Source of the DNA: Bacteroidota bacterium
Lineage (GTDB): Bacteria; Bacteroidota; Bacteroidia; Bacteroidales; JAADJA01
Assembly (NCBI GenBank): GCA_020444515.1
Contig: JAHLKX010000005.1
Coordinates: forward strand, 186,001 to 250,000
Length of the DNA stretch: 64,000 nucleotides
Direction of reading: 5' to 3'
The notes under the pieces are model-generated. The model saw only the letters and a program-made list of their open reading frames with translations. It was not told where the DNA came from and searched no databases. The position numbers were made by a program, and so were the translations under genes. Below are positions 25,345 through 26,690 of the stretch, in pieces (position 1 is the first letter of the stretch; each line of letters starts with the position of its first letter).

Positions 25345-25594
25345 AAAGTTGTAGTCGTTAATAGCGGTTACAAATTTAGTTTATCTCGATGAGATAAGAA
25401 TGAAGAAATATGAAGCATGTAACTTACCATTTAAATTATAATAGCTGTCGAACAGCTTCTTCAATTTCCCCGGGTAAAAATAGTATACTGGCTTTAAAGT
25501 CCTTTGTATGTTAAATAAGGCTGATTTTAAATTGCATGCAGAGGTGTTAAACGAAATAGAATTTCCGTTATATTAGCAACACCAAAAACATGAC

Positions 25595-25714
25595 ATGAGG
25601 AGAAACGCCAAAACAATTAAAAAAGATATATTGAGTAAAAAATCCATCTTTCGCCGAAGGCTTAAAGATGACGAAGAAAAAACATCACGTTACCATTCCG
25701 TTTATGGAAATTAG
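25595..25714 (+). CDS. Small basic ORF (39 aa), hypothetical
   Basis: MRRNAKTIKKDILSKKSIFRRRLKDDEEKTSRYHSVYGN, preceded by a purine-poor leader; weak evidence. Confidence 0.25.
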   Translation: MRRNAKTIKKDILSKKSIFRRRLKDDEEKTSRYHSVYGN

Positions 25715-25771
25715 TGTGATAAAAGTTGTTGATAATACCAAATAACCCATCATTTTTAACTAAAGAAAAAA

Positions 25772-25810
25772 TTTGCCAAATAAAATAAATGTATTAACTT
25801 TGTAATTACA
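25772..25810 (+). promoter_or_regulatory. mazEF promoter with adjacent palindromic operator-like site
   Basis: TTTG (25772) - N19 - TAACTTTG (25795-25802), overlapping the perfect palindrome TGTAATTACA (25801-25810). Confidence 0.6.
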
Positions 25811-25826
25811 ACTGATAAATGTAATC

Positions 25827-26072
25827 ATGGAAGTATCAATCATAAAAATCGGAAATTCGAAGGGATTCAGACTTAGCAAAACATTGCTGGAAAAATACAA
25901 TATTAAAGACAAGGTCGAATTAATCCTTGAAAAAGGCAGAATCATCATAAAACCTATTGACACTCCGAGAAAAGGTTGGGAAAATGCTTTTAAAGAAATG
26001 CATGAGAATGGAGATGATAAGTTGCTATTTAATGATGTTTTTGAAGATGAAAACCTGGAAGAATGGAATTAA
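25827..26072 (+). CDS. AbrB/MazE-family antitoxin
   Basis: MEVSIIKIGNSKGFRLSKTLLEKYNIKDKVELILEKGRIIIKPI: SpoVT/AbrB-type swapped-hairpin domain. Confidence 0.88.
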   Translation: MEVSIIKIGNSKGFRLSKTLLEKYNIKDKVELILEKGRIIIKPIDTPRKGWENAFKEMHENGDDKLLFNDVFEDENLEEWN

Positions 26073-26386
26073 AACAATATCAGATTGTTCTTGTCAATCT
26101 TGACCCAACAATTGGTAGTGAAATTAAGAAAACAAGACCTTGTGTAATAATTTCACCTGACGAAATGAATAAACACCTTCGTAAAATCATTGTCGCACCC
26201 ATGACAACCACCTCCCGAAAATATCCATCAAGAATTGAAGTAAAACATGAACAGAAAATTGGATGGATTGTCATTGACCAAATCAGAACAATTGACAAAC
26301 AACGAATAATAAAAGTATTGGGAAGACTTTCACAACCAGAAATTAAAGAAGTTAAATCGGTGATAAAAGAGGCTTTTGTTGACTAA
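26063..26386 (+). CDS. MazF/PemK-family toxin (endoribonuclease)
   Basis: QYQIVLVNLDPTIGSEIKKTRPCVIISPDEMN...IVAPMTTTSRKYPSRIEV...IVIDQIRTIDKQRI; overlaps the antitoxin gene by 10 nt. Confidence 0.93.
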   Translation: MELKQYQIVLVNLDPTIGSEIKKTRPCVIISPDEMNKHLRKIIVAPMTTTSRKYPSRIEVKHEQKIGWIVIDQIRTIDKQRIIKVLGRLSQPEIKEVKSVIKEAFVD

Positions 26387-26404
26387 AAGGAAAAAGAAAA
26401 CGAT

Positions 26405-26531
26405 GGGTAACACAGGATAAATGCAATACCGGCCATAGTGGAATTAAATGAAATTAAAAAATATCCTACCCAGGCAACAGAGAGACAGGTAACCAAGCCG
26501 GTACAGCACTTATCGTGGGAACGTTGCGTGT
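26405..26531. other. attC-like imperfect hairpin downstream of mazF
   Basis: GATAAATGC-AA-TACCGGC (26416-26433) pairs with GCCGGTA-CA-GCACTTATC (26497-26514): 7 perfect bp plus 8 of 9 bp. The flanks are ..GTAACAC and GGGAACGTTGCGTG.. Confidence 0.45.
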
Positions 26532-26690
26532 AATCTGAGAAACTTACTTTAACAAATCAAAATGAACCAAGTCTTACTATCCATTTTATTTCCCCCACCA
26601 GCGCGAGTCTGAAGCCAGGGCCTTGTTTGCAGCGACTCGTTCTCCTTATTAACATTTTAAGTAGTTGGCTGAATTGACCTGTGTTTTATC

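Follow-up and report, generated by a model that had tools for sequence, protein, structure and literature searches.

A solitary mazEF cassette in a Bacteroidota genome and a putative integron-like system whose integrase lacks the IntI-specific insertion

Introduction

Integrons (IntI, attI and attC), among them chromosomal integrons and CALINs (PMC9024848, PMC9668308), are the closest described counterparts of the system reported here. Both have a tyrosine recombinase beside attI and head-to-tail cassettes, and in both the attC shows R''/R' complementarity, a G/TT core (the slash marking the presumed cut), spacers of 1 nt and 5 nt and a more stable bottom strand. The IntI-specific domain is regarded as defining and as needed (PMC9668308, citing Messier and Roy 2001; PMC4792948), its I2 helix being found in no other tyrosine recombinases (PMC9668308, PMC4792948). 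A study of tyrosine recombinases notes incomplete conservation of the insertion within its integron-like subgroup (PMC8138268), and the relevant sections of that study do not link the insertion-less members to cassette arrays. In Bacteroidetes proper, IntegronFinder 2 gave one complete integron, that of Salinibacter ruber (PMC9024848). We found no description of arrays served by I2-less integrases in the open-access literature searched, subscription papers and preprints being outside the scope.

The present system differs from IntI integrons in that its integrase lacks the I2 insertion of about 42 residues and has an extra N-terminal domain, its attC arms are mostly without fixed extrahelical bases, and its attI is dispersed in some genomes. 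It probably works like an integron, its activity being inferred, but we do not class it as an IntI integron because the defining I2 feature was tested and not met. Treponema integrons (PMC3607928) have the integrase orientation in common with it but are reported as intI integrons, whereas I2 is absent from the integrases described here. The closest enzymes, judged by sequence score and by Foldseek E-value, are XerA/Xer (NF040815; PDB 5hxy, 4a8e), which likewise have a short distance between boxes I and II; unlike these, the present integrases have attI and cassette arrays downstream and carry the N-terminal domain. Delta-attI-type cassettes of class 1 and 2 integrons (PMC12901181) also have attI-derived sequence away from its usual place. 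There, however, attI fragments downstream of the gene replace attC, whereas here solo cassettes at many loci are preceded by a full-length attI.

Results

The hairpin after mazEF is an attC-type site

Positions 26405-26531 of the window (the whole 64,000-nucleotide stretch that was analysed) had been described in the original prediction as a long attC-like hairpin directly after a mazEF pair, perhaps ending a solitary cassette, with no integrase in the window. The pairing and its coordinates held when checked against the sequence: the stem arms 26416-26433 and 26497-26514 pair, and the core G26523/T26524 falls within GGGAACGTTGCGTG (Table 1). Taken alone the fold is weak, with z = -1.3 for the RNA (18 of 200 shuffles equally or more stable) and z = -1.8 for the DNA bottom strand (9/200). 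The hairpin nevertheless stands above chance because the element recurs. Four further copies of this 117-134 bp element were found in the host genome (an assembly of 16 contigs), with identities of 73-92% and adjoining different genes: C11:165525 (92%), C11:261205 (89%) and the more diverged C12:9666 (73%) and C11:166497 (half length, 74%). Across six copies of the element 94.4% of the arm cells are paired, a value that falls to 27-43% once the partner is slid by 1-3 columns, and two pairs in the arms are compensated. The attC body of the window scores 143.9 bits against the model.

An Rfam scan of the window returned one tRNA only, with no match at the hairpin, and the hairpin has no T-run. 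A search by exact pattern gave no second copy of the right core elsewhere, as is expected since the bases after G/TT belong to the neighbour; no downstream R'' fitting TTGCGTGTAA, as a next cassette would have, exists within the window. The hairpin is real and is an attC-type site; that it recombines is inferred, without an assay. The prediction would have failed had the sequence been unique, without attC-type relatives and conserved in the absence of mazEF, which is not the case, and its attC-like reading held, since the element is repeated beside different genes and forms part of a true cassette array.

Table 1. Features of the mazEF cassette and its borders, in window coordinates
Feature	Position	Strand	Description
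attI-like site, type B	25684-25742	+	cassette inserted here; no integrase gene adjoining
mazEF cassette, integrated form	25743-26523	+	from left core to G of right core
MazE-like antitoxin gene, 81 aa	25827-26072	+	ORF; weak matches to addiction-module antidote and MazE models
MazF/PemK toxin gene, 107 aa	26063-26386	+	PF02452, 105.9 bits (cut-off 23.1)
R'' box GATGGGTAAC	26402-26411	+	closes gene part of cassette; complement of cassette start
attC body	26412-26523	+	arms of ~20 bp (26413-26433, 26497-26517) flanking a long terminal region; 5-nt spacer; core G at 26523
TTGCGTGTAA	26524-26533	+	3' of core; part of sequence right of the insertion, outside the mazEF cassette

The mazEF pair stands alone behind an attI-like site

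The two genes meet the layout of a MazEF type II toxin-antitoxin system, with a small antitoxin gene upstream of, and overlapping, a MazF/PemK toxin gene. The attI-like site in front of them is 82% identical to G005:C66:127528-127583 in a related genome (local alignment score 96; maximum of 70 in 300 shuffles), where it heads at least two cassettes (TTGGCAAAC with GTTTGCCAAC, then TTGTGCCCC with GGGGCACAA). No integrase lies within about 8 kb of that site, and neither in the host nor in G005 does a type B attI adjoin a known integrase.

In the window cassette the left core has decayed, reading A/TA in place of G/TT, and with two substitutions the copy is perhaps no longer mobile. Positions 25742-25756 match the reverse complement of R'' at 12 of 15 bases, which is the best value in the 1.1 kb 5' of mazE but was equalled in 44 of 2000 shuffles, so that this single comparison is no more than suggestive. 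In the relative G010 a mazEF pair that is 80% identical has cassette ends complementary at 10/10 positions. Its attC body differs from that of the window, and the attI at which it stands resembles the one beside the integrase of genome G001. We conclude, from sequence alone, that the mazEF pair is very probably a solo cassette at an attI without an integrase, its left core slightly decayed, and to this extent the predicted solitary cassette held.

An array with the same attC type is headed by a recombinase elsewhere in the host genome

The window has indeed no integrase, but one with an array of the same attC type is found on host contig C11. Here a tyrosine recombinase (388-392 aa) heads about seven cassettes, and the first attC of the array is a copy of the window type (~92% identical). 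The attI core lies 38 nt past the start of the int stop codon, with similar placement in relatives. The order is recombinase, ...GATATAACGAG/TTGGCGATA, a 217-aa gene, TATCGCCAAC, hairpin, then ...GGGAACG/TTAGGCAAC, an FRG-domain gene, GTTGCCTAAC and the next hairpin. Over 10 nt, the bases that follow each G/TT are the exact inverted complement of the last ones preceding the hairpin, which would fit excision and integration of circles in which R'' and R' pair and the cut falls between G and TT. Given that the C11 array uses the same attC type, its integrase could possibly serve the window cassette in trans, recombination again being inferred.

Further along, the array holds a block of ABM, MarR-like and SDR-like genes and then a gene resembling alpha/beta hydrolases (the MarR, SDR and hydrolase genes being named by eye). 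The fifth cassette (L059:11542-12221) carries a second toxin-antitoxin-like pair, of DUF6364 and PIN domain (VapBC-like), and a methyltransferase (GTTAGAGTGC/GCACTCTAAC) and an S41 protease come after it. Except for the methyltransferase cassette these later cassettes have less perfect ends. Within the second attC lies a transposase, which we take to be of the IS1182 type (family assigned by eye). The S41 cassette is present twice (1852 bp, 99.7% identical; L059:13090-14941 and L013:3834-5685), once within the C11 array and once alone behind attI on C12. Identity between the copies breaks directly after R'' and their attC bodies differ; an exchange of attC may have been caught here, or the assembly may be mixed and contain both variants.

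The integrase lacks the I2 insertion

The C11 enzyme is without the insertion that bears the IntI-specific I2 helix. Against TIGR02249 (integron integrase) it scores below the cut-off and matches in two pieces that leave positions 179-239 unmatched, and its alignment with the solved IntI4 has a gap at the same place. The distance between boxes I and II is 92-98 aa in 38 of 39 relatives (the remaining row was mis-measured by the pattern), compared with 100 in Xer and 135-136 in IntI. An AlphaFold model (pLDDT 81, pTM 0.54) predicts no helix at the place of I2, and the solved structures nearest to this model are XerA and IntI4. The catalytic residues are invariant. The search for intI in the host genome gave no integrase over the IntI cut-off.

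The extra N-terminal domain (~75 residues, with a WS...KxWY(I/V) signature) is present in about 29 of the 39 relatives and in none of 13 IntI/Xer proteins. Its similarity to HARP is sub-threshold (E 0.001-0.1) and that to DUF5710 passes the Pfam cut-off in one protein only (L042); we regard this likeness as a possible lead and not as membership. In a phylogenetic tree the XerC/D proteins of the genus form their own 100/100 clade apart from the I2-less integrases, and IntI and Xer are clades, while the deep order and the status of the I2-less integrases as a single clade remain unresolved.

Some arrangements in other genomes may be recorded here. In the genus a single integrase exceeds the IntI cut-off (381 bits); it is at L058:5500-7500 (G002:C40:50507), on a contig that also has an I2-less integrase. 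In G004:C87 an integrase of 592-597 aa with three perfect cassettes occurs twice, inverted, on one contig (L060:600-4240 and L060:15750-17550), and this integrase has two or three copies of the N-terminal domain.

The attC sites differ in step with the protein

Folding of the circular form gives a bottom strand with an R stem, 1-nt and 5-nt spacers and an arm of ~20 bp, and the bottom strand is more stable than the top in 26 of 29 attCs. In a canonical control all 36 attCs have extrahelical bases (mean 2.94, most often in column 7), whereas 12 of 27 I2-less attCs have none (mean 0.81, no fixed column). The usual spacers are equal in both. The control attCs come from five Bacteroidota genomes with canonical IntI and are not independent, and both sets were picked by stem score. 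As I2 is described as accommodating extrahelical bases (PMC4792948), protein and site differ in step.

The attI site is dispersed in two genomes

An attI of ~83 bp (type A) is found at five loci in the host (G000; one copy, on C12, came from local alignment) and at six in G015, whose integrase is 64% identical to that of the host. The remaining 15 genomes of the genus gave no copy. The repeat has a sharp left edge and covers the 3' end of the integrase gene, and several copies bear one cassette and an attC. The attI of the C11 integrase is of type A. One copy of type A is at L059:4769-4850, the ten further loci being in G000 and G015.

I2-less integrases with cassettes are found across Bacteroidota

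Relatives of the I2-less integrase occur in 46 of 396 Bacteroidota genomes (E <= 1e-65). Where enough downstream sequence was available, a first cassette was sought within 1.5 kb; one with 9/9 complementary ends and a strong hairpin followed 14 of 31 integrases, and none did so in 30 rounds of shuffling. Longer stretches of relatives contain chains of 3-4 perfect cassettes, and in intact cassettes the starts and the R'' boxes are perfectly complementary over 9-10 nt. A scan 3' of intI gave a single match for the IntI proteins that were parsed, which would be expected of canonical arrays that diverge from intI. Of 248 genomes of the phylum, 70 have an IntI over the cut-off, and hardly any of these belong to the class of the host.

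Loose scans of raw DNA that allow one mismatch were noisy and matched both strands, because cassette ends are palindromic, and we therefore used linked or perfect cases. On plasmids of Chryseobacterium oryzae, Chryseobacterium sp. SNU WT5 and Rufibacter tibetensis, small genes in the same orientation follow the homologues and have cassette ends that fit; these arrays are from the loose scan and were interpreted along with gene order. In a metagenome-assembled genome, Candidatus Cloacimonadota bacterium isolate RS_16_45, there is an integrase of 42% identity together with an array whose cores are A/TT or G/TT. This array was read by eye and is missed by the strict scan, and misbinning is not excluded. 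An integron-like system with an I2-less integrase is very probably widespread in Bacteroidota, its activity being inferred.

Discussion

Our data are best explained if 26402-26533 is the attC of a single mazEF cassette at an integrase-less attI, within an integron-like system that includes the C11 integrase. We put the probability of this reading at about 0.85, with recombination inferred and none observed. The anatomy of attI, cassette and attC, the complementary ends, the arrays adjoining integrases and the absence both of the IntI insertion and of fixed extrahelical bases are shown by the sequence. The mechanism is inferred: the bottom strand of an excised cassette would fold into the R stem, the two spacers and the arm, and the integrase would bind the folded attC, cut between G and TT of R' and join it to attI, with the C11 integrase recombining the window attC with attI in trans. 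More tentatively, without I2 the enzyme may read the nearly perfect duplex arm in place of extrahelical bases, and the N-terminal HARP/DUF5710-like domain perhaps helps in reading the arm. A bolder reading, which tempts us without quite persuading us, is that of a second integron lineage in which I2 was never present or was lost, the near-perfect duplex arm being recognised with the HARP/DUF5710-like domain and one integrase serving many scattered attI pads.

The locus could instead be the leftover of an ordinary IntI integron, a CALIN with a single attC whose canonical integrase has been lost, with the C11 recombinase a bystander. The R''/R' logic and the spacer lengths do match canonical attCs, and elsewhere in the genus one genome, G002, has a true IntI. 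However, an attC of the window type comes first after the C11 integrase, no integrase of the host reaches the IntI cut-off, and the arms are without the fixed extrahelical bases of canonical sites; we hold this account to be very unlikely. We also consider it highly improbable that attI, gene and attC move together as a transposon-like unit, with the ~83-bp attI as left end and attC as right end, whether moved by the integrase or by another enzyme. Such a block would suit the scattering of type A attI over five loci in G000 and six in G015 with one sharp left edge, and those attI copies that bear exactly one cassette and attC; but from the multi-cassette arrays, and from complementary ends particular to each cassette, it follows that cassettes move separately from attI, and the attI of the window is of the other type, B.

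That the hairpin is an ordinary dispersed one, a REP-like repeat or a transcription terminator after mazEF, can be practically ruled out. Its fold stability is unexceptional for a single hairpin, and ~60 bp downstream is a sequence that also occurs in a RAYT-linked repeat of G009, but the hairpin has neither a T-run nor an Rfam match, its borders are cassette cores, and it alternates with genes in integrase-headed arrays.

If the integron-like reading is correct, a natural cassette system without I2, its attCs changed to match, makes the origin of integrons from Xer-like enzymes directly testable. Surveys that require an IntI-specific profile would miss I2-less integrases, and because these would not be counted, cassette capture in Bacteroidota, including on Chryseobacterium and Rufibacter plasmids, is probably underestimated.

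Further observations concern the sequences flanking the mazEF cassette. A leader 5' of the type B attI is conserved in both genomes that have this site (window 25555-25640 and L081:8430-8540) and has a short reading frame (MRRNAKTIKKDILSKK / MKKTTKSIIHNSLLSKK); it may be a promoter or a leader peptide for cassettes. Some 60 bp 3' of the hairpin, window positions 26586-26643 hold a hairpin-bearing sequence (GCGCGAGTCTGAAGCCA...CGACTCG) with 78% identity to G009:C43:47507-47563, a copy followed by a gene which, read by eye, we take to encode a RAYT-type transposase. The window sequence is likely to be a REP-like element downstream of the cassette.
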